From NCBI GenBank assembly GCA_937914895.1, contig CALGIL010000255.1:1-20052 (forward strand): a DNA stretch of 20,052 nucleotides, read 5' to 3'. Below, in pieces: positions 1 to 15,893 of the stretch. The position numbers and the translations under genes were made by a program. The notes under the pieces are model-generated. The model made no database searches. It saw only the letters and a list, made by a program, of their open reading frames with translations, and was not told where the DNA came from. The stretch is from an uncultured Angelakisella sp. (GTDB lineage Bacteria; Bacillota; Clostridia; Oscillospirales; Ruminococcaceae). Each line of letters starts with the position of its first letter. Position 1 is the first letter of the stretch.

Positions 1-71
1 CCCTGAAGCTGATGATTCTGTACGTGGTGGTTGCCATTGTGGGCGGCGCCATCGGTCTGCTGGTCCCCTAA
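1..71 (+). CDS. C-terminal end of a membrane protein, probably PTS mannose-family EIID (partial)
   Basis: Only the last 22 codons and the TAA stop are present, with the first complete codon at position 3. The residues form one hydrophobic helix rich in Val, Ile and Gly and end in GLLVP. Mannose-family EIID proteins end in a similar glycine-containing transmembrane helix, and an EIIC gene of that family follows, so EIID is the best guess. The usual order is EIIC before EIID, so this may instead be the end of a separate PTS operon or of another membrane protein. A strong terminator follows directly. The family call rests on one helix and on context. Confidence 0.4.
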   Translation, partial: LKLMILYVVVAIVGGAIGLLVP

Positions 72-231: not shown

Positions 232-1035
232 GTGGAGATGATTTTGAAGGCGGCGCTGATCGCCCTGTTCGGGTGGCTGTCCAGTACCGAATGTCCCTAC
301 GCGGGCACTTCCGGGTTTAAAAACGCCATCAGCGGGCCCATTGCCGGGGGCTTTATCAGCGGCATCATTTTGGGGGATGTGTCCAGCGGCGTCATTGTGG
401 GGTGCGCGGTGCAGACCATTTACCTTGCCACCCTGGTCATGGGCGGCGCCATGTCCGGGGATATGAACATCGTCTCCTACACCTGCATCCCCCTGGCGCT
501 GGTGGCCGGGGCCGACGTGGGCTTTGCCATGGCCCTGTCCGCCACCCTGGCCATTTTGGGGGCGGCGCTGTTTACTTTTTACGAGGGGTTTTGCTCCATT
601 TTTTACGCCATGGGTGACAGGGCCATTGAACGGGTGGATATTCCGGCCATGAAGCGTGCTTACATCCTCTGGCCCGCGGTGATTCATTTTCCCATCCGGT
701 TTGGCATCCCCTTTGTCACGGTGCTGCTGGGCGCCCAGTATGCCCAGTCGGTGCTGGACCTCATCCCGGAGCAGGCCCTGGTCATCGGACAGATTGTGGG
801 CGGGATGCTGCCCGCCGTGGGCATGGCCATTTTGCTGGCAAATTCCCTAAAGGACATCAAGCTGATGGTGTTTTACATTTTGGGGGTGATGGCGGTCAAG
901 TTTACCACCATCAACATTGTGGGGGTCGCGGTGCTGGGGGCCAGTCTGTCGGTGCTGTACTACATGTTCGCCCCGGACCGGCCCGCCGTGGGCAAGGCTC
1001 CGGACATCCCGGCCAGGGGAAACGACCCCGGCTGA
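232..1035 (+). CDS. PTS mannose/sorbose-family EIIC membrane component
   Basis: The 267-aa protein is a membrane permease subunit of a mannose-class phosphotransferase system, which imports a hexose or related sugar while phosphorylating it. It consists of hydrophobic Gly/Ala-rich helices. The ISGPIAGGFISGIILGD segment followed by an AVQTIYLA-type segment is typical of the EIIC (EII-Sor) family, and the length fits. The start is uncertain: GTG at 232 or ATG at 238, and neither has a strong Shine-Dalgarno sequence. No EIIA, EIIB or EIID gene lies immediately downstream, so the gene stands apart from its usual partners, which may be further upstream. A HAD phosphatase and a phosphomannose isomerase follow. 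Transport of mannose or a related hexose is therefore plausible but is inference. Confidence 0.85.
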   Translation: MEMILKAALIALFGWLSSTECPYAGTSGFKNAISGPIAGGFISGIILGDVSSGVIVGCAVQTIYLATLVMGGAMSGDMNIVSYTCIPLALVAGADVGFAMALSATLAILGAALFTFYEGFCSIFYAMGDRAIERVDIPAMKRAYILWPAVIHFPIRFGIPFVTVLLGAQYAQSVLDLIPEQALVIGQIVGGMLPAVGMAILLANSLKDIKLMVFYILGVMAVKFTTINIVGVAVLGASLSVLYYMFAPDRPAVGKAPDIPARGNDPG

Positions 1036-1269: not shown

Positions 1270-2136
1270 ATGATCAAACTGTTTGTAAGCGACATTGACG
1301 GCACGCTGCTGCCAAAGCCCCATCTGTACGACAAAAAGACGGGGGGCGTCAGCGGCGAGGACCTGGACGCCCTGTCGGATCTGAAGCGCTCCGGGGTGCG
1401 CCTGGGGCTGGCCACGGGGCGGCACCACACCTTTTTGTCCACCTTTGACAGGCACCCCAATCTGCTGCTGCCCACGGTGGGCTTTAACGGCGGCTATGCC
1501 TGGATGGACGGGCGGGTGCTGTACGACAACCCCTTTCCCAAGGAAGAGGTCCGCGCCATGATCCGGGACTTTCCCGAAATCATCCACGGCTTTATGGGCT
1601 GTACGGTGGAAAATACCTGGGTATACTACACCCTGGAGGACTGCCGCCGGTTTTACTTTCAGGGCAGGGCGGAGGGCCGCTGCGGCTTCGAGCGGATGTA
1701 TCCCCTCTCCCTGGAGGAGTATTTGGAGGACGCCACGGTGCCGCCCCTAAGCCACATCTTCATCAGCATCAGCCCGCCCCACACGGTGGAGCAGTACCGG
1801 GACATCCTAAATGCCCACTATGCGGGCACCGGCCTGCGGGCGGTCATCACCTCCCCCCGCTCGGTGGACTTTTTGCGGGACGGCGACAGCAAGGCCGCCG
1901 GCATCGGGATTTTGGCGGAGCGGATGGGGCTGTCCATGGAGGAGGTGGCCGTGGTGGGGGATTCCTACAACGACATCGAAATGTTCCGGGCCGCGGGCAG
2001 AAGCTTTTGCATGGCGGGCGCACCCGAAGAGGTCCGCCGCCACGCCCACCAGACCGTCCGCGGGGTGGCCCAGGCGGCCCGGGTGATTTTGGCGGAAAAC
2101 CGACAGGCTGCGGCCGGAAAAAAGAAGGAGGCATAA
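1270..2136 (+). CDS. HAD-superfamily (Cof-type, IIB) sugar-phosphatase-like hydrolase
   Basis: The 288-aa protein is probably a cytosolic phosphatase acting on sugar phosphates or similar small phosphoesters. Motif I is DIDGT (nucleophile Asp8, acid/base Asp10). Motif II is ATGR with Thr49. The motif III lysine is Lys208, and motif IV is GDSYND (Asp231, Asp235). The long segment between motifs II and III fits a C2b cap. Length is normal for Cof proteins. The ATG has a good GGAGGA ribosome binding site at 1261-1266. The manA start lies 2 bp past the stop, so the two are almost certainly co-transcribed and translationally coupled. This suggests the phosphatase acts on hexose phosphates or clears a toxic phosphosugar. 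Substrate specificity cannot be read from sequence in this family. Confidence 0.88.
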   Translation: MIKLFVSDIDGTLLPKPHLYDKKTGGVSGEDLDALSDLKRSGVRLGLATGRHHTFLSTFDRHPNLLLPTVGFNGGYAWMDGRVLYDNPFPKEEVRAMIRDFPEIIHGFMGCTVENTWVYYTLEDCRRFYFQGRAEGRCGFERMYPLSLEEYLEDATVPPLSHIFISISPPHTVEQYRDILNAHYAGTGLRAVITSPRSVDFLRDGDSKAAGIGILAERMGLSMEEVAVVGDSYNDIEMFRAAGRSFCMAGAPEEVRRHAHQTVRGVAQAARVILAENRQAAAGKKKEA

Positions 2137-2138
2137 GG

Positions 2139-3098
2139 ATGGAAATGATCAGACTGAACCCGGTGTTTAAGGATTACCTGTGGGGCGGCGTGCGCCTGCG
2201 GGAGCAGTACAACAAGGACTGCGCCTATGATAAGGTGGCCGAAAGCTGGGAGCTGGCCGTGCACAAGGACGGCACCAATACCGTGGGCTCCGGCCCCGAC
2301 GCCGGCATGCCCCTGGACCGGTACCTTAAAAAACAGGGGGACGCCTGCCTGGGCGCCCGGGCCGCCGCCTTTGACTTCTTTCCGGTGCTCATCAAGCTCA
2401 TCGACGCCAAGGACCCCCTGTCCATTCAGGTGCACCCCTCGGACGAGTACGCCCTGGCGCACGAGGGGGAGTACGGCAAAACGGAGGTCTGGTATATTGT
2501 GGACGCCGAACCCGGCTCCTTTTTGTACTTCGGCCTTAACCGCACCGTCACCCCGGAGGAATTTAAAAGGCGCATCCAGGACAACACCATCCTGGAAATC
2601 CTAAACAAGGTGGAGGTAAAGCCGGGGGAGATCTACTTCATCCCCTCGGGCACCATCCACGCCATCGGCGCCGGCATCCTCATCTGCGAAATCCAGCAGA
2701 ACTCCAACCTGACCTACCGGGTGTACGACTACGACCGCCGGGATAAGGACGGCAACCCCCGGGAGCTCCACGTGGAAAAGGCCCTAAAGGTGGCCAGCAT
2801 GGAAAAGCTGGACCTGGCCCCCCAGGGAGCCAGAAGCGCCGGAGCCCAGGGCGGCATTAAGACCCCCATTGCCGACTGCAAATACTTTGCCAGCACCCAC
2901 TACACGGTGGGGGAGAAATGCGACCTGACCGCCGACCCGGGCAGCTTTACCCACCTGCTGTTTTTGGACGGCGCGGGCAGCGTCCGGTATGACGGCGCCA
3001 GCCTGGACTTTCAAAAAGGCGACAGCTTCCTGGTCCCCGCGGGGACAGGAGCCATCGCCGTTAAGGGCCGGTGCCAGTTTGTGGCTACAACGGTCTGA
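2139..3098 (+). CDS. manA: Class I mannose-6-phosphate isomerase (short Bacillus-type ManA)
   Basis: The 319-aa zinc cupin enzyme interconverts mannose 6-phosphate and fructose 6-phosphate in the cytosol. Metal ligands are visible as SIQVHP (Gln97, His99), KTEVWYI (Glu116) and SGTIHAIG (His174). The family motifs YLWGG, AESWELAVH and TYRVYDYDR (Arg194) are intact, and the length matches Bacillus-type ManA. I chose ATG 2139 over upstream in-frame starts because AAGAAGGAGG lies just ahead and it follows the HAD stop by 2 bp. The last 14 bp overlap the convergent GntR gene. It is the most canonical of the seven PMI-type proteins here and so probably the housekeeping or PTS-linked isomerase. Confidence 0.93.
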   Translation: MEMIRLNPVFKDYLWGGVRLREQYNKDCAYDKVAESWELAVHKDGTNTVGSGPDAGMPLDRYLKKQGDACLGARAAAFDFFPVLIKLIDAKDPLSIQVHPSDEYALAHEGEYGKTEVWYIVDAEPGSFLYFGLNRTVTPEEFKRRIQDNTILEILNKVEVKPGEIYFIPSGTIHAIGAGILICEIQQNSNLTYRVYDYDRRDKDGNPRELHVEKALKVASMEKLDLAPQGARSAGAQGGIKTPIADCKYFASTHYTVGEKCDLTADPGSFTHLLFLDGAGSVRYDGASLDFQKGDSFLVPAGTGAIAVKGRCQFVATTV

Positions 3099-3858
3099 GG
3101 GCGCTTAGGTTATCCCGCACCCCGCCCTCAAACTCCTCCCGGGTGCTGATGACCTCAAAGCACAGCCCCTGATAGGGGAGGATTACCGCGATGGAGTATT
3201 CCACCGGAAGGCTTTCGGCCAGGGCCAGCTCCTTTACGATCCACACCGTGGACCCCGTGGGGATGCCCAGCAGCCTGGAGGCCTTCCGGTCGCTGCTGCC
3301 CACCTCCATGCGCTGATGGACCTCGGTGATGCAGTAGCCGGCCTTGTCTATGTACTTATACAGGCCCGCCGTAACCTCATCCTGGTCCTGGGGCATGGTG
3401 GGAAAAAGGCGCGCCGGCGCATAGGACCGGGAGAAGGCCAGGGGCTTTTTGTCCACCCAGCGCAGGCGGTCCAGCACATAGACCGGGTCCCCCGCCGCAA
3501 GCTCCAGGCGTTCGGCAATGGCGGCGTCGGCCGGCTGGGTGCCAAAGGCCACCCGGGTGCACGTGCCTCCCACATGCCCGGCGTTCAGGCTCATGTTGAT
3601 GCGGCCCGTGGCGGTGGGCATGGGGCGGGCGGCCACAAAGGTGCCCACGCCCTTGTGCCGCTCCAGCACCCCCTCGTTGACCAGCTCGCCAATGGCCTGG
3701 CGGACGGTGGTACGGCTGAGCCCAAACTCCTCCATCATCTCAAATTCCGAGGCGATGGGCTCCCCCTTGGGGTAGATCCCCTGGTCGATGCGCTCCAGCA
3801 GAAGCTGCTTCAGCTGGTAGTACAGGGGAATGGGAATGGCTTTATCAATGCTTGTCAT
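3085..3858 (-). CDS. GntR-family (HutC subfamily, UTRA domain) transcriptional regulator
   Basis: The 257-aa protein should be a ligand-controlled DNA-binding repressor. Residues 10-76 form the GntR winged helix: PLYYQLKQLL, a helix-turn-helix around SEFEMMEEFGLSRTTVRQAI, and a GVLERHKGVGTFV wing. Residues from about 95 to 245 match a UTRA effector domain, which in this subfamily usually binds phosphosugars or other small metabolites. Its 3' end overlaps manA by 14 bp tail to tail. Its place between manA and the isomerase array, and the absence of any other sugar-type regulator in the window, make it the leading candidate for the AATGTCATGACATT operators near 5864 and 6193. That link is inference. 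Confidence 0.9.
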   Translation of the reverse strand: MTSIDKAIPIPLYYQLKQLLLERIDQGIYPKGEPIASEFEMMEEFGLSRTTVRQAIGELVNEGVLERHKGVGTFVAARPMPTATGRINMSLNAGHVGGTCTRVAFGTQPADAAIAERLELAAGDPVYVLDRLRWVDKKPLAFSRSYAPARLFPTMPQDQDEVTAGLYKYIDKAGYCITEVHQRMEVGSSDRKASRLLGIPTGSTVWIVKELALAESLPVEYSIAVILPYQGLCFEVISTREEFEGGVRDNLSALRPL

Positions 3859-4997: not shown

Positions 4998-5034
4998 ACC
5001 CCGCAGACAAAATAACGCCCCACAACGTGGGCAA

Positions 5035-5062
5035 GCCCGGGACCTTAGCCCCGGGCCTTTTT
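5035..5062 (+). terminator. Terminator of the M28-like gene, overlapping the deoC 3' end
   Basis: GCCCGGG (5035-5041) pairs with CCCGGGC (5050-5056), followed by C and T5 on the plus strand. The right arm and T run lie inside the final codons of convergent deoC, so one sequence serves both. A second weaker stem, GCCCCACAACGTGGGC (5017-5032), sits beside it and may help stop transcripts coming from deoC. Confidence 0.65.
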
Positions 5063-5737
5063 GTATTCCTCCAAAATCTGCAGGGCGCTGCTGGTTCCAA
5101 TGCGCTCGGCCCCCGCGTCGATCATGGCTTTGCACGCAGCCCAGTCCCGGATGCCCCCCGCGGCCTTTACCTTGACGGCGCCGCCCACCGTCTCCTTCAT
5201 CAAACGGACGTCCTCCACGGTGGCGCCCCCGGTGCCCATGCCGGTGCTGGTCTTGATAAAGTCGGGCTCCACGTCCCTTGCAATTTCGGCCAGCCTTACA
5301 ATTTCCTCCTTGGTCAGATAGCAGTTTTCGAAGATGACCTTGGACAAAACGCCGGCCCGGCGGCATACCCGGACAATGGATTCCATCTCCTCCCGGAGAT
5401 AGTCCCACCTGCCGTCCCGCAAAGCGCCGATATTGATGACATAGTCGATTTCATCCGCACCGTTTTGGATGGCGTTTTCGGTTTCGAACACCTTGGCCTC
5501 AATGGTGGTCTGCCCCAGGGGAAAGGCGATGGCGGCGCCCACATGGACCCCGCTGCCGGCCAGCAGGTCCTTGCACAGGGCGGTGGGCCCCGAGTTGACG
5601 GCCACCATGGCAAAGTGGTGCTCGGCGGCCTCGCTGCACAGCTTTTTAAAATCGGCCCCGGTGGCAAAGGCCTTCAGCAGGGTGTGGTCAAACAGTCCGC
5701 ACAGCTCCTGCCGGGTAATGGTGTCGGAACGAAGCAT
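5045..5737 (-). CDS. deoC: Deoxyribose-phosphate aldolase
   Basis: The 230-aa class I aldolase cleaves 2-deoxyribose 5-phosphate to glyceraldehyde 3-phosphate and acetaldehyde in deoxynucleoside catabolism. The Schiff-base lysine is Lys162 in FIKTSTG, and the proton-relay lysine is Lys191 in VKAAGGIR. The active-site Asp is in the DEIDYV segment (Asp98). Length is typical. The start has GGGAGG upstream at modest spacing. It is monocistronic here and diverges from the isomerase array, so the 500-bp gap between them holds promoters for both. Nothing shows that it works with the array, although an aldolase beside sugar isomerases is suggestive. Confidence 0.95.
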   Translation of the reverse strand: MLRSDTITRQELCGLFDHTLLKAFATGADFKKLCSEAAEHHFAMVAVNSGPTALCKDLLAGSGVHVGAAIAFPLGQTTIEAKVFETENAIQNGADEIDYVINIGALRDGRWDYLREEMESIVRVCRRAGVLSKVIFENCYLTKEEIVRLAEIARDVEPDFIKTSTGMGTGGATVEDVRLMKETVGGAVKVKAAGGIRDWAACKAMIDAGAERIGTSSALQILEEYKKARG

Positions 5738-5778
5738 CTTTTGCAGCCTCCCTCAAGTTTCTACATGTTCTACCCTTT

Positions 5779-5784: not shown

Positions 5785-5831
5785 CGAAAAAACTTAACAA
5801 AAGAAAAGCGGCAAAATGGCTTAAGATTTGG

Positions 5832-5877: not shown

Positions 5878-5880
5878 GTG

Positions 5881-6160
5881 CCGGGGGCCTCTGCCTCAAG
5901 CGGAAATCCGCCATGGACCTTTGGGCGGACGCCCGCCGCGGTTCCAATCACAGCGGACGCCCCGCCGGCACCGTCCGGGAGTGCGGTCCGGGGGCCGCAT
6001 CCGTATGGCCGGCGGCACGGACAGGCCTGCCGCGGCCCGGCGACGCCGGGAACAAAACAGCCCCGCCGCCCAGGGCCGTCCGGCTGCGGGCGGGGGGACA
6101 AAATTGGAAAAAGTGTGTAAATTCCCGCGAAAAAACCCCTATCTATGGGCAAAGATTCAA
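5881..6160. other. GC-rich stretch between the two array promoters, no supported gene
   Basis: These 280 bases would be the leader of transcripts from the distal promoter. An open frame runs from ATG 5865 or 5913 to about 6164, but it has no ribosome binding site, its first ATG lies in the operator, and its Arg/Gly/Pro/Trp-rich product resembles nothing I know. Short inverted repeats are visible, such as GCGGA, AA, TCCGC near 5900. I recognise no riboswitch or known RNA. Confidence 0.5.
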
Positions 6161-6206
6161 TTGACATTTGGGGCAAGTTCAAGTATGATTATAATGTCAT
6201 GACATT
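6161..6206 (+). promoter_or_regulatory. Proximal promoter-operator module of the isomerase array
   Basis: TTGACA (6161-6166), a 17-bp spacer, TATGAT (6184-6189), three bases, then the perfect 14-bp palindrome AATGTCATGACATT (6193-6206). An extra half-site, AATGTCA, lies at 6212-6218. The palindrome covers the expected start of transcription and lies 32 bp ahead of the first gene. The symmetry and position fit a GntR-type or similar dimeric repressor. Confidence 0.75.
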
Positions 6207-6238
6207 CTAGCAATGTCAGAGAAAAGGGAGGTACCTTT

Positions 6239-8008
6239 GTGAGCTATTTTAACGACCCAAGCTGGAAGCCGAATTTTAACATGCACCCTGTCTTTGAGAT
6301 TGGGGGCACCCAGTCGGCAAAGGGCTACGCCGCCATTGCGGACACCCTGAAAAAGCGCATTGCCGCCAGGGGCGGCCAAAAGACCGTGGTGGTCTTTGAC
6401 TACTACTACGGCATCAATGAACAGGGCATGCTGGACGGGGTGATTGGGGCCCTGGGCGCCGCCACCCTGCTGAATATGGAGGAGGCCCACTACCCCGAGG
6501 CGGTTATCCAGGAAAAATTCGGAAAGTATATCACCGACGACCGCATTATGGGCGTGTTTGCCGTGGACCAGATCGACGCCCACTTCGACCCCGAAAAGGT
6601 GGCCCGGCTGAAGAAGCAGATTGACGAGGCCGCGGGCCTTGTGGTGCTGTACGGCGTGGCCGCCTCCATCGTCACCCGGGGCGACATTCTGGTGTACTGC
6701 GAAATCCCCAAGCAGTCCATTCAGGAGCGCTATAAGGCCGGCATGCCCAACTGGGGCGCCGGCAACGGCGGCGAGGAGCAGCTGAAAAAGGAAAAACGCC
6801 TCCAGTTTGTGGAGGGGCGCATCCTCAACTGGCACAAGCAGCTGATTCTGAACGACTTTGATTACATTGTGGACTGCCATGACGACCTGAAGGGCCAGCC
6901 TGTGATGATTGACATGAAAAACTTTGATAAGATGGTCCGCAGCATTGCCACCCGCCCCTTTACCACCATGGGCAGCTGGACCCCCTCCATCTGGGGCGGC
7001 AAATGGGCCCAAAAGGTGCTGGGCGCCGACCCCACCAAGGACAACATCGGCTGGGCCATGCCCGGCAACATCGACCGCTTTCCCATGAACGTCAGGATGG
7101 GCGGCAACGAGGTTACCCTGGAGGCCATGGACCTGGTGTACTACCTCCCCAAGCAGATCATCGGCCCCCATCACCTGTCCGTCCACGGCTACTCCGGCAT
7201 TTTGGTGGTCAACTATCTGGACACCTGGGGCGGCGGCAACCTCAGCCTGCAGGTGCACCCCACCTACGAATACGGCAAGCGGACCTTTAACATGGAAAAG
7301 GGCCATCACGAATCCTACTACATCATGGACGCCGGCGAAAAATCCCATGTTTACCTGGGCGTCAAAACCGGCGTCACCCTGGACGAGCTGGTGGACGCCT
7401 TTAAGGAGGCCCAGGAGACGGGCACCTTTGACGAGGACAAGTACCTGAACAACTTCCCCGTCCAAAAGCACGACCACGTCTATGTCCCCGCGGGCACCGT
7501 CCACGCGTCGGGCACCGACACCGTGGTGCTGGAGATTAACGCTTACAGCACCCAGACCTTTAAGCTGTGGGACTGGGGCCGGGTGGATTACGACGGCAAG
7601 CCCCGCCCCATCAACATCGAGCACGGCCGGCACTGCATCGACATGGACTTTAACACCGAGGTCTCCCGGGACCAGCTGCTGTCCAAAAAGCAGGAAGTGG
7701 ACCGCGGCGTGGGCTGGCGCAAGGAGTTCTCCGGCGTTTCTCCCTACGCCCCCTACTCGGTCTACCGCTACTGGGTCAAAAGCTCGGTGACCCTGGAGAC
7801 CAAGAAGGAGCTGAAGGTCCACGTGCTGGTGGAGGGCGCCGAGTGTGTGGTGGAAAGCCCCGACCACGCCTTTGAGCCCTACGTGGCCCACTACGGCGAG
7901 GTGTTTTATATCCCCGCGGGGGTCGGCCAGTACACCATCCGCCCCTACGGCAAAGCCGAAGGCCAGGAGATTGCCTTTGTGGAAGCCTATATGTGCTACA
8001 ACCGCTGA
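6239..8008 (+). CDS. Long phosphomannose-isomerase-like protein 1, kinase-like domain plus class I PMI cupin
   Basis: The 589-aa protein starts at GTG with GGGAGG seven bases upstream. Residues about 28-215 form a domain whose order (VVVFDYYYG strand, IQEKFGKYITDDRIMGV, GLVVLYGVAAS, GDILVYCEIP, NWGA, WHK, DYIVDC) recalls the core and lid of nucleoside-kinase-like proteins. No GxxxxGK[ST] P-loop is present. The rest is a class I phosphomannose isomerase core: SIWGGKWAQKV, SLQVHP (Gln338, His340), HHESYYI (Glu358), PAGTVHASGT (His422). Metal ligands are complete, so sugar-phosphate isomerase activity is possible. The Arg of the TYR motif is Lys442. Such long PMI-like proteins occur in other anaerobes as far as I recall, usually annotated simply as mannose-6-phosphate isomerase. 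First gene of the array; its substrate is unknown. Confidence 0.85.
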   Translation: MSYFNDPSWKPNFNMHPVFEIGGTQSAKGYAAIADTLKKRIAARGGQKTVVVFDYYYGINEQGMLDGVIGALGAATLLNMEEAHYPEAVIQEKFGKYITDDRIMGVFAVDQIDAHFDPEKVARLKKQIDEAAGLVVLYGVAASIVTRGDILVYCEIPKQSIQERYKAGMPNWGAGNGGEEQLKKEKRLQFVEGRILNWHKQLILNDFDYIVDCHDDLKGQPVMIDMKNFDKMVRSIATRPFTTMGSWTPSIWGGKWAQKVLGADPTKDNIGWAMPGNIDRFPMNVRMGGNEVTLEAMDLVYYLPKQIIGPHHLSVHGYSGILVVNYLDTWGGGNLSLQVHPTYEYGKRTFNMEKGHHESYYIMDAGEKSHVYLGVKTGVTLDELVDAFKEAQETGTFDEDKYLNNFPVQKHDHVYVPAGTVHASGTDTVVLEINAYSTQTFKLWDWGRVDYDGKPRPINIEHGRHCIDMDFNTEVSRDQLLSKKQEVDRGVGWRKEFSGVSPYAPYSVYRYWVKSSVTLETKKELKVHVLVEGAECVVESPDHAFEPYVAHYGEVFYIPAGVGQYTIRPYGKAEGQEIAFVEAYMCYNR

Positions 8009-8015
8009 CGGCCGC

Positions 8016-8096
8016 CGCCCCTGCGGAAGGGGCGCGGCTTTGGCGGAGGGACGCCCCTGTCAAAACGGATCACAGGGCCGCCGCCCGGGCGGCGGC
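8016..8096. promoter_or_regulatory. Two intercistronic stem-loops between long1 and long2
   Basis: CGCCCCT, GCGGA, AGGGGCG (8016-8034) and the perfect 20-bp palindrome GCCGCCGCCCGGGCGGCGGC (8077-8096) fill the gap between the two genes. Neither is followed by a T run, so they look like mRNA processing or stability elements that could set gene dosage rather than terminators. Confidence 0.55.
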
Positions 8097-8137
8097 GGGC
8101 CCATGGCTGAGCAAAGCTTGAGAAAGGGAGAGTTTGT

Positions 8138-9916
8138 ATGAGCTACTATTACGACAAAAACTGGGTCCCCAACTTTAATGTGCGCCCGGTGTTCCCCATC
8201 AAGGACACCTGCTCCTGGAAGGGCAACGACGCCATTGTCTGCGCGCTGAAGGACCGGATTGCCAAAGAGGGGAAGGAAAAGCTGGTCGTCACCTTTGACT
8301 ATATGTACGGCTTTGACGAAAGCGTCCTGCTGGAAAAGGTCATCAAACAGCTGGGCGCCGCCACCCTCATCGACACAAACGAGGCCAAATATCCCGAGCC
8401 CGTCATCCAGGAGAAATTTGGCAAGTATATCACCGAGGACCGCATTATGGGCGTCTATATCCCCGACCAGGTGGATGCGTTTTTTGACCCCGCCGCGGTG
8501 GAAAAACAGCGCAGGGCCATCCGGGACGCCAAGGGCCTGGTGGTGGTGTACGGCGTGGCCGCCGAGGTGGTCTGCGGCGGCGACGTGCTGGTCTACTGCA
8601 ATGTCACCGAAAAAACCATCGGCGACCGGATGCGCCGGAAGGGCCTGGGCAACTGGGGCGCCGACAACGGCGGCGACGAGTTCTTAAAGCGCCAGAAGAG
8701 AAACAACTTTGTGGAAAAACGCGTTTTGTACTGGCACCGCACCGTCATTCTGCCCGTCATCGACTACATGATGGACTGCAACGACGAGGAAGCCCTGGTC
8801 ATGGTTGACCGGGAGACCTTTGACAAGGGCGTTAACAGCATGGCCCACCGCCCCTACCAAAGCTGCCCCCGCTGGACCGAATCCATTTGGGGCGGCGACT
8901 GGGCGCAGAAGGTGCTGGGCGCCGACCCCAGCCTGCCCAACGTGGGCTGGGCCACCCCCGGCAGCGCCGAAAGCCTGCCCATCATCCTCAACTTTGGCGG
9001 CAACGACTTTATGCTGGAGGGCATGGACCTTATCTTCTACCTGCCCAAAAAGATCATCGGCGCCCGCCAGCTGTCCTGGCACGGCTACCGCGCCCCCGTC
9101 AGCAGCAACTATCTGGACACCTGGCACGGCCAAAACCTCTCGCTGCAGGTACACCCCACCAAGGTGTACGCCCAGCGGATGTTTAACGCCGACACCGGCC
9201 ACCACGAGTCCTACTACATGATGGACACCATGGAGGGCACCGGCGATGACAGCCATGTGTACCTGGGCGTCAAAACCGGCGTCACCCTGAAGGAACTGGT
9301 GGCCGCCTTTGAGGAGGCCCAGGAGACCGGCAAATTCGACGACAAAAAATACCTTAACGACTTCCCCATGAAGAAGCACGACCATGTCTACATCCCGGCG
9401 GGCACCGTCCACGCGTCGGGCACCAACACCGTGGTGCTGGAGATTAACTGCTTTGGCATCGAGACCTTTAAGCTGTGGGACTGGGGCCGCGTGGACTACG
9501 ACGGCAAGCCCCGCCCCATCAACATCGAGCACGGCAAGCACTGCATCAACGTGGACTTTAACACCGAGGTGGCCGCCGACGAGCTTATCTCCAAGCGGCA
9601 GGAGGTGGCCCGGGGCTACGGCTGGCGCAAGGAGTTCTCCGGCACATCCCCCTACGCCCCCTACTCGGTGTACCGCTACTGGTTTACCGAGGCCATCCAG
9701 TTTGAAACCGACGACGTCATTAAGATGCACGTGCTGGTGGAGGGGGAGGAAGCCATTGTGGAAAGCCCCAACCAGGCATTTGAGCCCTACGTCTTCCATT
9801 ATGGCGAGACCCTGTATATCCCCGCCGCCGTGGGCCAGTACACCATCCGCCCCTACGGCAAGGCCGCGGGCAAGGAGTGCGCCATCGTCGAGGGTTATAT
9901 GAACTACACCCGCTGA
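8138..9916 (+). CDS. Long phosphomannose-isomerase-like protein 2, kinase-like domain plus class I PMI cupin
   Basis: The 592-aa paralogue of the preceding gene is closest to it, with very high similarity over the last 200 residues. The kinase-like N-terminal domain again lacks a Walker A motif (VVTFDYMYGFDESVLL at the expected place). It keeps EKFGKYIT, RIMGV, GLVVVYGVAAE, DVLVYCNVT and NWGADN. In the cupin core the ligands are Gln337, His339, Glu357 and His425. The TFKLWDWGR motif has Lys445 where ManA has Arg. ATG 8138 has GGGAG seven bases upstream. It is followed by a terminator-like hairpin and then short1, so long2-short1 may form a functional pair. Substrate unknown; differences from long1 around the cupin pocket suggest specialisation rather than redundancy. 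Confidence 0.85.
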   Translation: MSYYYDKNWVPNFNVRPVFPIKDTCSWKGNDAIVCALKDRIAKEGKEKLVVTFDYMYGFDESVLLEKVIKQLGAATLIDTNEAKYPEPVIQEKFGKYITEDRIMGVYIPDQVDAFFDPAAVEKQRRAIRDAKGLVVVYGVAAEVVCGGDVLVYCNVTEKTIGDRMRRKGLGNWGADNGGDEFLKRQKRNNFVEKRVLYWHRTVILPVIDYMMDCNDEEALVMVDRETFDKGVNSMAHRPYQSCPRWTESIWGGDWAQKVLGADPSLPNVGWATPGSAESLPIILNFGGNDFMLEGMDLIFYLPKKIIGARQLSWHGYRAPVSSNYLDTWHGQNLSLQVHPTKVYAQRMFNADTGHHESYYMMDTMEGTGDDSHVYLGVKTGVTLKELVAAFEEAQETGKFDDKKYLNDFPMKKHDHVYIPAGTVHASGTNTVVLEINCFGIETFKLWDWGRVDYDGKPRPINIEHGKHCINVDFNTEVAADELISKRQEVARGYGWRKEFSGTSPYAPYSVYRYWFTEAIQFETDDVIKMHVLVEGEEAIVESPNQAFEPYVFHYGETLYIPAAVGQYTIRPYGKAAGKECAIVEGYMNYTR

Positions 9917-9930
9917 TAAGTACCTGCCCG

Positions 9931-9966
9931 AAAGAGTATTATTCCGCCCGGGGTAATACTCTTTTG
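9931..9966 (+). terminator. Internal terminator or attenuator between long2 and short1
   Basis: AAAGAGTATTA (9931-9941) pairs perfectly with TAATACTCTTT (9954-9964), giving an 11-bp stem that ends in four Ts. The T tract is short, so termination may be partial and would lower expression of the downstream genes. Confidence 0.5.
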
Positions 9967-10000
9967 GCACGATTATCCCACCACGAAAAGAGGAAAAACC

Positions 10001-10957
10001 ATGGAACAAATCGTACTGCTGACCCCCCCGCCCCTGGACCGCGAGGCCATTTGGGGCGACGGCAGCCTTGCCAAAAAATACGGGGCCAAGCTGGCCCCCG
10101 GCATTGACCCCGACCATAACCACCTGACCGGGGGCGGCGGCTTTAACGAAATCGACATCATCGATTCGGGCGAATACGCCGGCAAAACCCTGAAGTGGCT
10201 GTATGACAACCACAAGGAATATTTTGGCACCCCGGACGAAATCCGCTGGCAGGATATGCTGCCCGTAAGCGCCGGGACCCTGAATGCCGGGGAAAACCTC
10301 AGCGTCCAGGTCCACCCCCGGGAGGACTGGGCCCAGGAGCATCTGGGCATCCACGGCAAAAGCGAGTGCTGGTATATCCTGGACTGCCCCAAGGACGCCA
10401 CCATTGTCCGGGGGCACAACGCCCAAACCCTGGAGGAGCTGGACGACTATATCGCCCGTAAGGACTGGATGAACCTGATGCGCTTTGACCCCATTCGGCC
10501 CGGCGACCTGCTGGGCATCAAGGCCGGCACCCTCCACGCCATCCAAAAGGGCACCCAGTGCATCGAGGTGTGCAACCCCTGCCCCATTACCTACCGCTTT
10601 TGGGACTGGGACCGGGTGGGCCTGGACGGCAAGCCCCGGGAGCTGGACATTGAAAAGACCCGGGACAACATCCTGGTGCCCTACCGGCCCATCACCTTTC
10701 CGCCCATTGTCAGCCATTACGGCGACGTGGAGGAAAAGTGGCTGGCCAACAACGAGGACTACTCGGTGTGGACCTATACGCTGAACGGCAAAGGCACCGT
10801 CCCCCGCAAAAAGCCCTTTATCGGCGGCTTTGTGGTGGAAGGGGAGGGGACGATAAACGGCGTGGCTGTAAGGGCCGGCCGGCCCTTCCTCGTCTCCCGC
10901 GGGTGCGGCGAATTTGTGCTGGAGGGCAACATGACCATGCTGGGCTGCCACGCCTGA
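10001..10957 (+). CDS. Short phosphomannose-isomerase-like protein 1
   Basis: The 318-aa class I PMI-type cupin protein has ligands in SVQVHP (Gln103, His105), KSECWYI (Glu122) and KAGTLHAIQKGT (His179). The TYRFWDWDR motif keeps the conserved Arg199. It differs from ordinary ManA at two signatures. The YLWGG motif is AIWGDGSLAKKYG, and the AESWEL segment is replaced by IDSGEYAGKTLKWLYDNHKEYFG. This defines a separate subfamily shared by the three short proteins. Hexose-phosphate or aldose isomerase activity is likely from the intact metal site, but the sugar is unknown. GAGG lies about 8 bases ahead of the ATG. The gene is bracketed by terminator-like hairpins, so its level is probably set separately from its neighbours. 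Confidence 0.85.
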   Translation: MEQIVLLTPPPLDREAIWGDGSLAKKYGAKLAPGIDPDHNHLTGGGGFNEIDIIDSGEYAGKTLKWLYDNHKEYFGTPDEIRWQDMLPVSAGTLNAGENLSVQVHPREDWAQEHLGIHGKSECWYILDCPKDATIVRGHNAQTLEELDDYIARKDWMNLMRFDPIRPGDLLGIKAGTLHAIQKGTQCIEVCNPCPITYRFWDWDRVGLDGKPRELDIEKTRDNILVPYRPITFPPIVSHYGDVEEKWLANNEDYSVWTYTLNGKGTVPRKKPFIGGFVVEGEGTINGVAVRAGRPFLVSRGCGEFVLEGNMTMLGCHA

Positions 10958-10975
10958 CCACGGTCCCCCGCCAGC

Positions 10976-11012
10976 GGCAGGCCGGACGGCCAAAGCTCCG
11001 GCCTGCCTTTTT
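10976..11012 (+). terminator. Strong intrinsic terminator between short1 and short2
   Basis: GGCAGGCCGGA (10976-10986) pairs with TCCGGCCTGCC (10997-11007) and is followed by T5. This is the clearest terminator inside the array. Genes beyond it need readthrough or their own promoter, and I see no convincing promoter in 11013-11122. That stretch does contain the palindrome CCGGACCGGTCCGG at 11083-11096. Confidence 0.75.
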
Positions 11013-11122
11013 CAGGGCAGGGTTTGTAGGTACATACCGACATACTTCCCCAGCAATCGGGTAAATTTGCCGGGGCCGGCCCCCGGACCGGTCCGGCGCA
11101 GCAGCATAAAGGAGGGAGACCC

Positions 11123-12073
11123 ATGGAGAAGATTTTGCTTTTGGAGCCGGAACCCCTGAAGTTTGAGGCCATTTGGGGCGACGGCCGCATCGCCAAAAAG
11201 TACAACCGCAAGGTGGCCCCGGGGGCCAACATTGACCGCCTGGCCGACGGCGGCGGCTTTGGCGACACCGACACCATTGTCAGCGGCCAGTACGCCGGCA
11301 AAACCCTGAAGTGGCTGTACGACAACCACAAGGAATACTTTGGCACCCCGGAGGAGATCCGCTGGGAGGATGTGCTCCCTGTGGGGATGGGGGTGGGCTA
11401 TGCCGCCGAAAACCTGAGCATCCAGGTGCACCCCCGGGAGGACTGGGCCCAGGAGCACCTGGGGATGCACGGCAAAAGCGAGTGCTGGTTTTTTATCGAC
11501 TGCCCCGAAAACGCCAGCATCGTCATGGGCCACAACGCCCAAACCTTTGAGGAGCTGGACGACTATATCGCCCGCAAGGACTGGTACGGCCTCATCCATT
11601 ACGAGCCCATTGCCCCCGGCAAGCTGCTGGCCATTAAGGCGGGGACCCTTCACGCCATCCAAAAGGGCACCACCTTTATCGAGGTGTGCAACCCCTGCCC
11701 GGTAACCTACCGCTTTTACGACTATGACCGGCTGGATGCCGACGGCAAGCCCCGGTATACCGACATCCCCAAAACCCGGGAAAACATTTTGGTGCCCAAC
11801 CGCATCTTTACCTTCCCGCCCATTGTCAGCCGGTACGGCGGCGTCAAGGAGACCTGGCTTGCCAACAACGAGGATTACTCGGTGTGGCGGTATGAGGTGG
11901 ACGGCAAGGGCACCGTGCCCCGGAAAAAGCCCTTTATGGGCTGCTTTGTCATCGAGGGCCAGGGCACCATCGACGGCATGCCCCTGGAGCCCGGCCGCAA
12001 CTTCTTTGTCTCCCGGGACGCCGACGAGGTCACCCTGGAGGGCAAGCTGGACATTTTGTGCTGCCACAGCTGA
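11123..12073 (+). CDS. Short phosphomannose-isomerase-like protein 2
   Basis: The 316-aa short-subfamily PMI cupin has metal ligands Gln101 and His103 (SIQVHP), Glu120 (KSECWFF) and His177 (KAGTLHAIQKGT). Arg197 is kept in TYRFYDYDR. The subfamily marks AIWGDGRIAKKYN and GKTLKWLYDNHKEYFGTPEEIRW are present. It is very close to short1 through the core but differs at the N-terminal loop (residues 34-52, GANIDRLADGGGFGDTD) and has YDYDR in place of WDWDR, both near where substrate should lie. AAGGAGGGAG precedes the ATG at good spacing. It follows a strong terminator and has no visible promoter of its own, so its expression level is uncertain. Confidence 0.85.
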   Translation: MEKILLLEPEPLKFEAIWGDGRIAKKYNRKVAPGANIDRLADGGGFGDTDTIVSGQYAGKTLKWLYDNHKEYFGTPEEIRWEDVLPVGMGVGYAAENLSIQVHPREDWAQEHLGMHGKSECWFFIDCPENASIVMGHNAQTFEELDDYIARKDWYGLIHYEPIAPGKLLAIKAGTLHAIQKGTTFIEVCNPCPVTYRFYDYDRLDADGKPRYTDIPKTRENILVPNRIFTFPPIVSRYGGVKETWLANNEDYSVWRYEVDGKGTVPRKKPFMGCFVIEGQGTIDGMPLEPGRNFFVSRDADEVTLEGKLDILCCHS

Positions 12074-12194
12074 GCAATGCGGCGGACGGGAGGCCTGCAT
12101 CTTTATTTCCCCCATGTGCAAAACCGGATACAACCCTTTTGGTCAGGCAAAGCCGGCGGCGGCCGGAATTTTATAAAATAACAGGAGGAGAGCC

Positions 12195-13976
12195 ATGAGC
12201 GACCGCAAAAGCTATTTTTTTGACGAGACTTGGGTGCCCAACTTCAACCTGGACCCCAAAACGGTTATTCCCGACAGCAAGTCCCACAAGGGCTACGACG
12301 CCATTCTGAAGACCCTGAAGGACCGCATTGCCAAAGAGGACAAGAAAAAGCTGGTGGTGGTCTTTGACTACTACTACGGCATCGACCAAAAGAAGATGCA
12401 GGACAACGTCATCGGCAAGCTGGGCGCCAGCCTGCTGGTGGATGTGGAATCCGCCAAGTACCCCGAGGACGTTGTTCAGGAAAAATTCGGCAAGTACATC
12501 ACCGACGACCGCATTATGGGCGTCAACATTCCCGACCCCATCGACGCCTTTTTCTGCCCCGACAAGCTGGCCGGCCTGCAAAAGCAGATTGACGGCGCCG
12601 CGGGTCTTGTGGTCGTGTACGGCGTGGCCGCCGCGGTGCTGACCCGGGGGGACCTTTTGATCTACTGCGAGATTACCCACCAGGAGGTGGCCGCGCGGTT
12701 CCGCAAGGGCCTGCCCAACTGGGGCGCCACCAATTATGACGAGGACCCCCTGCGCAAGGAAAAGCGGGACAGCTTTGTGGAAAAACGGGTCCAGCTGTGG
12801 CACAAGCGCCCCCTGCTGAAGGTGATGGACTACCTTATCGACTGCACCGGCGACCAGGGCGACGGCCCCGTGATGATGTGCGGCGACGGCTTCCGCAAGG
12901 CGATTCAGTACATGGCCCACCGCCCCATCCAGAACACCCCCAACTTTACCCCCGCCGTCTGGGGCGGCCACTGGGCCCAAAAGGTGCTGAACGCAAAGCC
13001 CCAGGAGAAGAACATCGGCTGGGCCATGCCCGGATCTTTGGAGATGCTGCCCGTCAAGCTGGTGGCGGGGGGCAACGAGATTTCCATCCCCGCCTACGAC
13101 CTGGTTTTGATGGAGCCCAACGACGTCATCGGCAGCCGGCAGTTTTCCAACTACGGCTACAAGGCCCCGGTCATCATCAACTATCTGGATACCTGGCAGG
13201 GGGGCAACCTCAGCCTGCAGGTACACCCCACCATCTCCTATGCCCAGGAGAAGTTCAACTCCGACTTTGGCCACCACGAAAGCTACTACATGATGGACGT
13301 TATGGACGACAGCCACGTCTATCTGGGCCTTAAAAACGGCGTTACCGTGGACGAGTTTGTGGATGCCCTTAACGAGGCCCAGGAGACGGGCACCTTTGAC
13401 GACGGAAAGTATGTCAACAACATCCCCATGACGCGCCACGACCATATCTTCATCCCCGGCGGCACCGTACACGCCTCGGGCGACAACACCGTGGTGCTGG
13501 AAATTGACATCTTCGGCGTCCAGACCTTTAAGCTGTGGGATTGGGGCCGCATCGATTTTGACGGCAAGCCCCGCCCCATCAACATCGAGCACGGCGCCAA
13601 CGTCATCAACCCCGAAATCGACACCGACTTCACCCTGGAAAACCTGGTGTCCACCCGCCATCTGCTCAAAAAGGGCTACGGCTGGAAGAAGGAGTTTTCC
13701 GGCACCAACGCGTGGGAGCCCTTTTCGGTCTACCGCTACTGGTTCCACAAGCCCCTGTACCTGGAAACCGACGGCGTGGTTAAGGCCTATGTTCTGGTGG
13801 AGGGCCGCGAGGCCGTGGTGGAAAGCCTGGACGGTTCCTTTGAGCCCTTTGTGTTCCACTATGCCGAAAACGTCTTCATTCCCGCCTCGGTGGGGCAGTT
13901 CCTCATCAAGCCCCACGGCGAAAGCGCCGGGCAGGAGATTGCCATTGTGGAAAGCTATATGAATTTCTCGGTTTAA
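12195..13976 (+). CDS. Long phosphomannose-isomerase-like protein 3, kinase-like domain plus class I PMI cupin
   Basis: The 593-aa protein is the most diverged of the three long paralogues. The N-terminal kinase-like domain (about residues 35-218) retains VVVFDYYYGID, VVQEKFGKYITDDRIMGV, GLVVVYGVAAAV and NWGATN, again without a P-loop. Cupin ligands are Gln342, His344, Glu362 and His426; Lys446 replaces the TYR-motif Arg. In the middle region the segment before the metal site (ISIPAYDLVLMEPNDVIGSRQFSNYG) differs clearly from long1 and long2. AGGAGGAG lies ahead of the ATG. It is followed by a hairpin and then short3, repeating the long-short arrangement of long2-short1. Isomerase activity is plausible; substrate unknown. 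Confidence 0.85.
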   Translation: MSDRKSYFFDETWVPNFNLDPKTVIPDSKSHKGYDAILKTLKDRIAKEDKKKLVVVFDYYYGIDQKKMQDNVIGKLGASLLVDVESAKYPEDVVQEKFGKYITDDRIMGVNIPDPIDAFFCPDKLAGLQKQIDGAAGLVVVYGVAAAVLTRGDLLIYCEITHQEVAARFRKGLPNWGATNYDEDPLRKEKRDSFVEKRVQLWHKRPLLKVMDYLIDCTGDQGDGPVMMCGDGFRKAIQYMAHRPIQNTPNFTPAVWGGHWAQKVLNAKPQEKNIGWAMPGSLEMLPVKLVAGGNEISIPAYDLVLMEPNDVIGSRQFSNYGYKAPVIINYLDTWQGGNLSLQVHPTISYAQEKFNSDFGHHESYYMMDVMDDSHVYLGLKNGVTVDEFVDALNEAQETGTFDDGKYVNNIPMTRHDHIFIPGGTVHASGDNTVVLEIDIFGVQTFKLWDWGRIDFDGKPRPINIEHGANVINPEIDTDFTLENLVSTRHLLKKGYGWKKEFSGTNAWEPFSVYRYWFHKPLYLETDGVVKAYVLVEGREAVVESLDGSFEPFVFHYAENVFIPASVGQFLIKPHGESAGQEIAIVESYMNFSV

Positions 13977-13997
13977 CCAGGCGGGCCTGTACAAAAA

Positions 13998-14027
13998 GGG
14001 GGCGCGGGCTTTTTCTGCCGCGCCCCC
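13998..14027. promoter_or_regulatory. Intercistronic stem-loop between long3 and short3
   Basis: GGGGGCGCGG and CCGCGCCCCC form a perfect 10-bp stem with a 10-base loop that holds T5. No T run follows, so it is more likely a stability or processing element than a terminator on this strand. Confidence 0.5.
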
Positions 14028-14052
14028 GCACACAAACGCAAAGGAGAAGCAT

Positions 14053-15009
14053 ATGGAACAGGTCATTTTGCTAAAGGTCCCCCCGCTGGAGTGGGAGGTC
14101 ATCTGGGGCGACGGCTCCCTGGCCAGAAAGTATAACCGGGAGCTGGCCCCCGGCCTGGACCGGAACAACAACCGCACCTCGGGCGGCGGGGGCTTTAGCG
14201 GCAGCGACATTATTGCCGACGGTCCGTTTGCGGGCCAGACCATGGACTGGCTGTACAAAAACCACAAGGAGTACTTTGGCACCCCCGACGAGCTGCGCTG
14301 GGATGACATTATCCCGGTGGGCGGCGGCATCCTCCACGCGGCCGAGGACCTGAGCGTCCAGGTGCACCCCCGGGAGGACTGGGCCATGGAGCATCTGGGC
14401 ATCCACGGCAAAAGCGAATGCTGGTACATTGTGGACTGCCCCGAGGGCGCCGACATCGTCATGGGCCACAAGGCCAAAACCTTTGCGGAGCTGGACGACT
14501 ACATTGCCCGGGAGGCCTGGGAGGACCTGGTGGAGCGCCACCCCATCTGGCCCGGCTGCTTTTACGCCATCAAGGCGGGCACCCTTCACGCCATCCAGAA
14601 AGGCACCACCTGTGTCGAGGTGGCCAACCCCTGCCCGGTGACCTACCGCTTTTGGGACTACGACCGGCTGGACGCCGACGGCAAGCCCCGGTACGTGGAC
14701 ATCCCCAAGACCCGGGAGAATATTTTGGTGCCCTACCAGCAGTTCCAGTTCCCCCGCATCATCAGCACCTACGGCGGCGTCAAGGAGACGTGGCTTGCCA
14801 ACAACGAGGATTATTCCACCTGGCTGTACGACGTGGACGGCCGCGGCGCCGTGCCCCGGAAAAAGCCCTTTATCGGCTGCTTTGTCATCGACGGCCACGG
14901 CACAGTCAACGGCATGGAGCTGAAGGCCGGCGATCCCTTTTTCATCTCCCGGGGCTGCGACGAGTTTACTTTGGAGGGAAAGATGCAGATCATCTGCATG
15001 CACGGATAA
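14053..15009 (+). CDS. Short phosphomannose-isomerase-like protein 3
   Basis: The 318-aa third short-subfamily PMI cupin has metal ligands Gln103 and His105 (SVQVHP), Glu122 (KSECWYI) and His179 (KAGTLHAIQKGT), with Arg199 in TYRFWDYDR. The subfamily signatures VIWGDGSLARKYN and WLYKNHKEYFGTPDELRW are intact. It departs from short1 and short2 in the 60s (GQTMDWLYKN for GKTLKWLYDN) and in the helical segment near 154-172, which may reflect a different sugar. AAGGAG is well placed before the ATG. The AKR gene starts 26 bp past its stop, the closest gap in the array, so the two are probably co-expressed and may act in sequence. Confidence 0.85.
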   Translation: MEQVILLKVPPLEWEVIWGDGSLARKYNRELAPGLDRNNNRTSGGGGFSGSDIIADGPFAGQTMDWLYKNHKEYFGTPDELRWDDIIPVGGGILHAAEDLSVQVHPREDWAMEHLGIHGKSECWYIVDCPEGADIVMGHKAKTFAELDDYIAREAWEDLVERHPIWPGCFYAIKAGTLHAIQKGTTCVEVANPCPVTYRFWDYDRLDADGKPRYVDIPKTRENILVPYQQFQFPRIISTYGGVKETWLANNEDYSTWLYDVDGRGAVPRKKPFIGCFVIDGHGTVNGMELKAGDPFFISRGCDEFTLEGKMQIICMHG

Positions 15010-15035
15010 AGCACTGCAAGGAAGGAGCATGATTG

Positions 15036-15893
15036 ATGTTTCAAGTCGAAAAATCCTACAAAATGTACAACGGGGTTTCCATCCCCAGCATCGGATACGG
15101 CACCTGGAAGATTACCGACCCACAGGTGGGCATACGGGCCATGAGGGAGGCCATCGAGGTGGGCTACCGCCACCTGGATTCCGCCCAGGGGTACGGCAAC
15201 GAGGAGACCCTGGGCGAGGCCATCCGCCAGTCGGGCATCGACCGGAAGGAGCTGTTTATCACCGGCAAGGTCCTTAACAGCAGCAAGGGGTACGAATCCA
15301 CCCTGCAGGCCTTTGACCAGACCTTAAAAAACCTGGGCACCGACTACCTGGACCTGTACCTCATCCACTGGCCCAAGACCAAGGATACCCTGGACACCTA
15401 CCGGGAGCTGAACCGCCAGACCTGGAAGGCCTTTGAAAAGCTGTATGATGAAGGCCTTGTGCGGGCCATCGGCGTCAGCAATTTCCACAAGCCCTACCTG
15501 GAGGAGCTTTTAAGCGATAACATCAACATAAAGCCCATGATGGACCAGATTGAAATTCACCCCCATTATTTTGAGCGGGAGACCATTGAGTTTGCCAAGG
15601 CCAACGACATGCTGGTATCCGGCTACAGCCCCCTGATGCGGGGCGGCCAGCTGGAGGACCCGGTCTTTGTAAAGCTGGCCCAAAAGCACGGCAAGACCCC
15701 CGCCCAGGTGGTGCTGCGCTGGGCCCTGCAAAAGGGGACCATCCCCCTGCCCAAGACGGTCACCAGGGAGCGGATGATCTCCAACCTGGACGTCTACGGC
15801 TTCCAGCTGGACCAGGACGACATGGCTATTCTGGACGCCCAGCACCGGGCGGACGGCAAAATCGGTTCCCACCCCGACCACACAAAATTTTAG
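15036..15893 (+). CDS. Aldo/keto reductase
   Basis: The 285-aa (alpha/beta)8-barrel NAD(P)H-dependent oxidoreductase reduces aldehydes, ketones or sugars. The catalytic tetrad is complete: Asp48 and Tyr53 in HLDSAQGYGNEE, Lys78 in FITGKV, His111 in LIHWP. The C-terminal nucleotide-binding region has PLPKTVTRERMISNL. Length is normal for the diketogulonate-reductase-like group. I chose ATG 15036 because AAGGAG (15022-15027) is 8 bases upstream; a TTG at 15033 and an out-of-frame ATG at 15029 are less likely. As last gene of the array before a terminator, it may reduce a ketose or aldose made by the isomerases to a polyol, or the reverse. That role is inferred from position only. Confidence 0.9.
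   Translation: MFQVEKSYKMYNGVSIPSIGYGTWKITDPQVGIRAMREAIEVGYRHLDSAQGYGNEETLGEAIRQSGIDRKELFITGKVLNSSKGYESTLQAFDQTLKNLGTDYLDLYLIHWPKTKDTLDTYRELNRQTWKAFEKLYDEGLVRAIGVSNFHKPYLEELLSDNINIKPMMDQIEIHPHYFERETIEFAKANDMLVSGYSPLMRGGQLEDPVFVKLAQKHGKTPAQVVLRWALQKGTIPLPKTVTRERMISNLDVYGFQLDQDDMAILDAQHRADGKIGSHPDHTKF

Follow-up and report, generated by a model that had tools for sequence, protein, structure and literature searches.

A tandem array of phosphomannose-isomerase-like genes in an uncultured Angelakisella sp. shares a rare, recurring gene set predicted to serve sugar-phosphate catabolism

The type I phosphomannose isomerases (PMIs; ManA), represented by the B. subtilis (1qwr) and Salmonella (3h1m/3h1y) enzymes, are the closest described counterparts of a gene array analyzed in this study, which lies in a 20,052-nucleotide stretch of DNA from an uncultured Angelakisella sp. 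(G000:C255:1-20052, hereafter the window). The array consists of seven intact plus-strand open reading frames (ORFs) in the order L1, L2, S1, S2, L3, S3 and an aldo/keto reductase (AKR), that is, three long (L) and three short (S) PMI-fold genes in tandem closed by a reductase, with a canonical manA nearby. This layout was described in an earlier note on the DNA and was seen again in the ORFs, which are all open and intact, in agreement with its statement that the copies are not decaying duplicates. Compared with ManA, the array L proteins add a domain of ~235 residues, and carry His where ManA has Lys at the K-x-E position. This lysine was matched by motif to Salmonella K132, a catalytic residue; a structure titled as the K132A variant carries the code 5zvu. 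Further, the TIGR00218 cut-off (116.2 bits) was reached by the manA at 2139 and by none of the six array proteins (19.5–37.9 bits for L and 86.5–90.5 bits for S), so the array genes are regarded as PMI relatives rather than ManA equivalogs.

A corresponding gene set was found as an operon in a distant lineage, Massilimicrobiota and its relatives; NCBI taxonomy places Massilimicrobiota in Erysipelotrichales. In Massilimicrobiota locus L031, the gene order was AKR, phosphotransferase system (PTS) IIA, IIB, IIC and IID, a Cof-type HAD phosphatase, S, two L genes (La and Lb), GntR, a second HAD protein and DeoC. The same order was read gene by gene in L170 (genome G503) and L171 (G499), and all three loci carry the complete IIA, IIB, IIC and IID set, while a fourth genome (L032), read in part, follows the L031 order for AKR, IIC, HAD, S, the two L genes, GntR and DeoC. 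S of L170 and L171 was 78%, and their La/Lb were 72–74%, identical to those of L031. Between the window and the conserved operon, identities were 64–67% for DeoC, 47–48% for S, 45–48% for AKR, 43–48% for both IIC and L, 33–36% for GntR and 24–27% for HAD. The Cof-type HAD directly follows the PTS genes in the conserved operon, as it does in the window, and Lb stands immediately before GntR in the three operons read gene by gene. Because AKR, PTS, Cof-type HAD, S, two L, GntR and DeoC recur together in this distant operon, a dedicated sugar-phosphate locus is likely.

Co-occurrence of S and L was then assessed by comparing the longest contig of each protein cluster, counting equal lengths only; 65 array-type L clusters were compared, two of which belong to the window. 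By this measure, 10 of the 60 S clusters had a longest contig identical in length to that of an array-type L cluster, vs. 0 of the 46 lower-scoring PMI matches from the same search. In one further genome, G448, a single array-type L and a single S-type PMI lie on separate contigs. The recurring operon and the contigs shared by S and L clusters strengthen the proposal of the earlier note that the array belongs to a dedicated pathway, and one condition that it had named as refuting, a lack of conservation outside the strain, does not hold: the long-short set is conserved, though rare. In the conserved operon it goes together with a mannose-family PTS. Its span for the locus, 6239–15893, holds for the array itself but omits the linked upstream IID end, IIC, HAD, GntR and DeoC.

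The array proteins had also been assigned to the class I PMIs, which is correct for the family but not for the whole length of the L proteins, residues 1–~235 of which form another domain. Each L protein consists of an N-terminal pantothenate/uridine-kinase fold (residues 1–~236 of L1, 6239–6946) and a type I PMI part of ~350 C-terminal residues; AlphaFold2 models (pLDDT 95.2 and 94.9) matched a kinase-type fold (PanK/uridine kinase). The P-loop of such kinases was not found. A loose Walker A motif ([AG]xxxxGK) was seen at the aligned P-loop position in 0 of 98 aligned L rows, and [GA]xxxxGK[ST] in 0 of 120 N-domain matches. The strict form (GxxxxGK[ST]) occurred within the first 130 residues of 1 of 120 long proteins, off position, and in none of 125 size-selected locus ORFs, 86 of them with a PMI motif. 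A D-x-Y-x-G motif is present in most aligned L rows, and no Pfam model for the kinase-fold domain was found among the best 25 of 35 families from the Pfam scan. Because the P-loop is lost, the kinase-shaped domain most likely serves ligand binding or enzyme scaffolding rather than phosphorylation, as judged from fold and motif loss. One database protein (P0227, 485 aa) was seen to run from the kinase-fold domain and a partial PMI into a UTRA domain (PF07702), that is, an L gene fused to the end of a GntR-type gene through deletion or misassembly; and manA-like ORFs of 724 and 632 aa in L022 (G021) and L029 (G044) are further long manA forms with a second domain.

The metal site was evaluated by alignment, which upheld the claim that the Gln/His/Glu/His ligands are kept in all copies. 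They are present in all seven PMI-type proteins of the window, with Q338, H340, E358 and H422 (L1 numbering) invariant across L1–L3, and Q103, H105, E122 and H179 (S1 numbering) invariant across S1–S3 and manA. The mutual identity is 56–62% for L1–L3 and 65–69% for S1–S3, and the S proteins are ~27% identical to the window manA. S1–S3 retain the Lys at the K-x-E position, which was kept in 58 of 60 S clusters (read by motif). At the same position of aligned L proteins, His was found in 69 of 69 array-type rows, and the remaining L rows had Gln (29 of 29). In a separate reading by motif, 14 of 120 proteins and 39 of 125 ORFs gave no call for this position, the latter set including unrelated ORFs. 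The two classes were taken from a 98-row tree (3 window proteins, 73 of 120 listed matches and 22 from loci or plasmid records), in which the 69 array-type rows form one clade (100% SH-aLRT); the clade was recovered in a 50-row tree as well (100/100, stem 0.89). The metal ligands together with E432, K442, D445 and R448 are fixed in all 69 array-type rows.

A profile of the array proteins was searched against genome sets, with matches above 800 bits counted. For the order to which Massilimicrobiota belongs, 4 of 294 genomes had such matches (at most four candidates scored per genome). The window's genome was the sole one to match in samples of 327 genomes from its family and 398 from its phylum (limit 1e-205 for the latter), as was G448 in a sample of 198 from the order of G448. 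For another family of the window's order, 0 of 300 genomes matched at E ≤ 1e-200, a result that shows nothing by itself, and nine other same-genus genomes (completeness 59–97%) gave no L1 match at E ≤ 1e-3. The array-type clade is separate and rare. Two other measures were set aside. The PF01238 profile gave no match in the window's own genome despite manA and six relatives, so the model is ill-suited to this branch and was not used as evidence; and dN/dS ratios among the copies (0.33–0.74) were not used, as they carry little meaning because synonymous sites are probably near saturation at a GC3 near 0.85.

In the L tree, La and Lb formed separate groups. Wherever two array-type L genes were found together outside the window, each of the two types was present once. 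This held for all eight sources in the tree, five of them contig pairs of equal length and three of them genomes, with single-copy cases outside the count. L1–L3 and three database relatives formed a clade of their own (100/100), nested with La in a group of 24 rows (96/97), and because of this own clade L1–L3 are considered to have arisen separately from the La/Lb split. Read from these trees, L multiplied independently, as the La/Lb pair in the Massilimicrobiota lineage and as L1–L3 in the window. S1–S3 fell within one six-row clade. We also weighed whether L and S had duplicated together, strictly pair by pair, but this is unsupported, because the window branching of the two differs.

The aldolase genes were compared between the operon and the remainder of the genomes. 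Each of the six genomes checked has one or more deoxyribose-phosphate aldolases (DERAs) in addition to the operon copy (2 to 5 matches each). The operon DeoC proteins share the motifs VAVN/VAIN, AI(A/S)FPLGQ, IDYVIN and FENCYL, and retain the lysine-bearing KTSTG and VKAAGG motifs, the Schiff-base lysine motif among them, while the best-scoring DERAs of the four Massilimicrobiota-type genomes (G446, G447, G499 and G503) have VCVNP or VCVN plus another residue, VIGFPLGA, (V/I)DMVIN and IETCLL. The two further DERAs of the window's genome match neither pattern, and of the Breznakia copies, the one beside a non-array L (G450) has the FENCYL form and the other (G450_b) is intermediate. The motif differences hint at another, dedicated substrate of the operon DeoC. 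As separate observations, a second locus of the window's genome (L216, G000:C90:5001-15042, 3900-8329) holds mannose-family PTS genes and a DeoC-like protein with FECCQL, not FENCYL, along with a protein that bears weak similarity to FrlB/GlmS-type SIS enzymes (52.8 bits, below cut-off). In L214 and L215 (G503, G446), a third DERA-like gene and a further PMI-like gene are no more than ~10 kb apart, the L215 cluster also having a cellobiose-type PTS IIC and GH1 phospho-glucosidases.

The reading that we favour, at about even odds, is that the window carries a catabolic locus under GntR control that serves a sugar imported by a PTS, with diversified PMI-like isomerases alongside the single isomerase usually found and a dedicated DERA-like aldolase. 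In such a pathway, the mannose-family PTS would import and phosphorylate the sugar, S and L would interconvert aldose and ketose 6-phosphates (or 2-epimers) beyond the range of ordinary ManA, the special DeoC-like aldolase would cleave the isomerase product, and the AKR and the HAD phosphatase would process fragments or by-products. We infer GntR control, the metabolic direction, the substrate class and the role of each copy. Several observations weigh against this proposal. The gene content singles out no substrate, the functions in the locus being predicted ones, and of the fructosamines, 2-deoxy sugars and allose/tagatose-type sugars considered, the evidence favours none. Only one other lineage yielded a reading of the complete operon, and the window locus is rearranged relative to it: GntR and DeoC lie on the opposite strand, IID precedes IIC and a manA is added. 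The HAD adjoining DeoC in the conserved operon is missing from the window, and PTS IIA and IIB were not seen there, the mannose-family PTS being represented by IIC and the IID tail at the contig end. The window trees also differ pair by pair, (L1,L2),L3 for the long vs. S1,(S2,S3) for the short proteins. In addition, some non-array L genes lie outside clear mannose loci, for example a Listeria copy near GntR, an ABC transporter and a transposase, with neither a mannosidase nor ROK across the 17.7-kb stretch viewed.

The co-occurrence of S and L, the constant pairing of one La with one Lb in the two-copy sources (8 of 8) and the three S plus three L genes of the window could also point to a hetero-oligomeric isomerase built from S and L (or from La and Lb), with the kinase-fold domain serving assembly or allostery. 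We consider this unlikely, as the four metal ligands in every copy leave no obvious non-catalytic subunit, the S:L ratio is 1:2 in the Massilimicrobiota-type operon but 3:3 in the window, and the S and L trees of the window disagree. A lineage-specific amplification of an ordinary mannose-6-phosphate isomerase, through dosage or drift and with no new specificity, appears still less probable: the copies differ at 31–44% of residues, unlike fresh dosage copies, a canonical manA is already in the window, the Lys-to-His change is fixed across the array clade, and a second lineage has the same kinds of genes together with a special aldolase, although the retained type I PMI fold and ligands, the mannose-family PTS and the absence of the array from the same-genus genomes searched would suit it.

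The loss of the P-loop, the Lys-to-His change in the L active site and the position of Lb directly before GntR in the three gene-by-gene operons would agree with L proteins acting mainly as sugar-phosphate sensors, in which a degenerate kinase domain and an altered PMI domain control S, the PTS or GntR. However, the metal ligands with E432, K442, D445 and R448 are fixed throughout the array rows (69 of 69) and many other L genes occur in settings that call for a PMI, making a sensor role quite improbable. As to the GntR-controlled catabolic locus, a more specific proposal is put forward tentatively and with more doubt than assent. It supposes an undescribed sugar-catabolic pathway whose key enzyme would be of a new type, a His-for-Lys isomerase with a P-loop-less kinase-fold domain sensing a sugar phosphate or nucleotide; L would have multiplied independently in two lineages so that each copy acts on its own sugar phosphate (or all join in a single hetero-oligomer), with a new DERA-like aldolase taking the following step. 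If the catabolic reading is right, it points to a sugar, not yet assigned, that some Bacillota take up via a PTS. It also draws attention to a large family, numbering thousands of proteins, that joins a degenerate kinase-like domain to a sugar isomerase and whose named members are mostly labelled 'class I mannose-6-phosphate isomerase'. The His/Gln/Lys split at one active-site position would give a simple handle on specificity, and because duplication took place repeatedly and independently, purified proteins could be used to ask why several isomerases are kept.

The features of the window and one reference coordinate of the conserved operon are listed in Table 1.

Table 1. Genes, promoter-like sites and palindromes of the window, and PTS IID of L170.
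Feature	Position	Strand	Basis and remarks
PTS IID-like gene, 3' end	1..71	+	22-residue frame-3 tail with terminal stop, resembling Massilimicrobiota IID tail; by eye, short, contig edge
Mannose/sorbose-family PTS IIC	232..1035	+	TIGR00822 87 bits, AgaW 86.5 bits, both below cut-off
Cof-type HAD-IIB phosphatase	1270..2136	+	TIGR00099 125 bits (cut-off 137); TIGR01484 65 bits, above cut-off
manA, canonical class I mannose-6-phosphate isomerase	2139..3098	+	TIGR00218 156.2 bits, above cut-off
GntR/UTRA regulator	3085..3858	-	PF00392, PF07702
DeoC/DERA-like aldolase, operon-type subfamily	5045..5737	-	TIGR00126 231.2 bits, above cut-off
Promoter-like site copy 1	5832-5860	+	TTGACG-17-TATCAT, consensus match only
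Operator-like palindrome copy 1, AATGTCACGACATC	5864-5877	+	three bases after promoter-like site
Promoter-like site copy 2, upstream of L1	6161-6189	+	TTGACA-17-TATGAT, 11/12 consensus match
Perfect palindrome copy 2, AATGTCATGACATT	6193-6206	+	three bases after promoter-like site
L1, P-loop-less kinase-fold domain + PMI domain	6239..8008	+	589 aa; AlphaFold2 models, fold matches
L2, architecture as L1	8138..9916	+	592 aa; 62% to L1, full length
S1, short PMI-fold protein	10001..10957	+	318 aa; 1qwr match E 1.5e-41; TIGR00218 86.5 bits
S2, short PMI-fold protein	11123..12073	+	316 aa; TIGR00218 90.5 bits (below cut-off); PF21621 above cut-off
L3, architecture as L1	12195..13976	+	593 aa; 56-57% to L1/L2, full length
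S3, short PMI-fold protein	14053..15009	+	318 aa; 65-68% to S1/S2
Aldo/keto reductase, 2,5-DKG-reductase type	15033..15893	+	286 aa; PF00248 177 bits; PRK11565 227 bits, below cut-off
PTS IID of L170	5897-6745 (in L170)		

The palindrome was first spotted by eye and tested afterwards. With ≤3 mismatches it has 3 matches in the window vs. 0.37 expected, one of them inside a 333-aa ORF, and exact matches to AATGTCAYGACATY in the whole genome are confined to copies 1 and 2; with ≤2 mismatches, the genome matches (6 and 6) were at the level of the controls (4 and 7). Promoter-like sites numbered 11 vs. 5.2 expected. A shared-motif scan of the intergenic stretches returned G+C-rich words only, the same palindrome was not seen upstream of the Massilimicrobiota-type operons, and an Rfam scan of the window at gathering scores gave 0 matches, leaving a regulatory RNA reading without support. 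The window GntR would be the natural candidate for acting at the palindromes.

Several neighbouring genes fall outside the set discussed. The 333-aa ORF (3996-4997, +) between GntR and DeoC matches no family above cut-off (DUF4191 weakly) and lies outside the conserved operon set. At 15959-16451 (-), two overlapping ORFs are likely one acetyltransferase-like gene (by eye), frame-broken or affected by an assembly error, and a 119-aa piece of it matched no Pfam family at E ≤ 0.01. Downstream of the locus (16574-19423), SufD/SufC-like genes (-) and a DegV-like gene (+) were labelled by eye. In L031, a ToxN-family gene (type III toxin-antitoxin; 4322-4855, -) lies just upstream of the Massilimicrobiota operon. 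The genes before AKR in L170 (G5/3D, nitroreductase, ArsR and flavodoxin/ferredoxin) were considered as part of the operon and rejected, being absent there among the scanned ORFs of L031.

Beyond the array type, the two-domain fusions are widespread and often occur as single copies: 4763 proteins matched L1 at E ≤ 1e-3 among 7997 scored candidates, and among the 120 matches listed, 118 cover ≥95% of L1 and the other two 81% and 91%. In the GTDB contigs, at least 546 of at least 586 pattern-matching stretches encode L relatives. The neighbours were tallied for 24 hand-picked other L loci (132/133 neighbour proteins), and 14 ROK proteins and 13 cupin glucose-6-phosphate isomerases (GPIs) were counted among 132. 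Non-array L copies lie near GH92, GH38 and ROK genes in Parabacteroides, near GH76, GH92 and ROK in Spirosoma, and with ROK, an AGE-family epimerase and a sugar ABC transporter nearby in Deinococcus; an L relative of Streptomyces (partial match) has GH38, GH76, GH125 and ROK nearby, and one other record carries no annotation around its copy. A mannose-family PTS, GntR and DeoC stand beside some non-array Bacillota copies (L035, L093), and a Citrobacter copy precedes PTS IIB, IIC and IID. That non-array L genes lie beside ROK, cupin GPI, mannoside hydrolase or mannose-type PTS genes agrees with a role of the family in sugar-phosphate isomerisation.

A cupin GPI (PF06560) was also observed close upstream of the non-array long PMI genes at L093:9447-9995 and L039:8634-9407, and L036, L104 and L109 have similar-sized ORFs upstream of long PMI genes, judged by size and position only. 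The complete E. coli genomes gave no match to the single L locus labelled E. coli, and a viral_contigs search for L1 relatives gave no match. Among phage records, 23 match L1 and five cover ≥80% of it (four Listeria records of 9–12 kb and one 28-kb 'Bacteriophage sp.'); these five are unannotated and possibly host DNA. In titles and abstract openings of mostly non-subscription literature, neither the array nor the kinase-fold/PMI fusion was described.

Taken against known systems, the nearest proteins by name are the long 'class I mannose-6-phosphate isomerases' (~580–600 aa, NCBI name), which have the same two-domain architecture as the array L proteins. The long non-array isomerases (L034 onwards) are ~34–40% identical to array L over the best segment, and have Gln at the lysine position where array L has His. 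ROK kinase and cupin GPI neighbours are common for them, while the array operon is without these genes, as neither was found among the scanned genes of the window or the operon genes of L031, L170 and L171. With the PanK, uridine-kinase and NRK P-loop kinases, the N-terminal domain of L shares the fold but has no Walker A motif at the P-loop position. The operon DeoC resembles deoxyribose-phosphate aldolase (DeoC) in scoring above the TIGR00126 cut-off and in KTSTG and VKAAGG, but differs in having VAVN/VAIN, IDYVIN and FENCYL for VCVN, (V/I)DMVIN and IETCLL. The gene set is made of known families, yet it is unusual, recurring and distinguished by a clean active-site marker.

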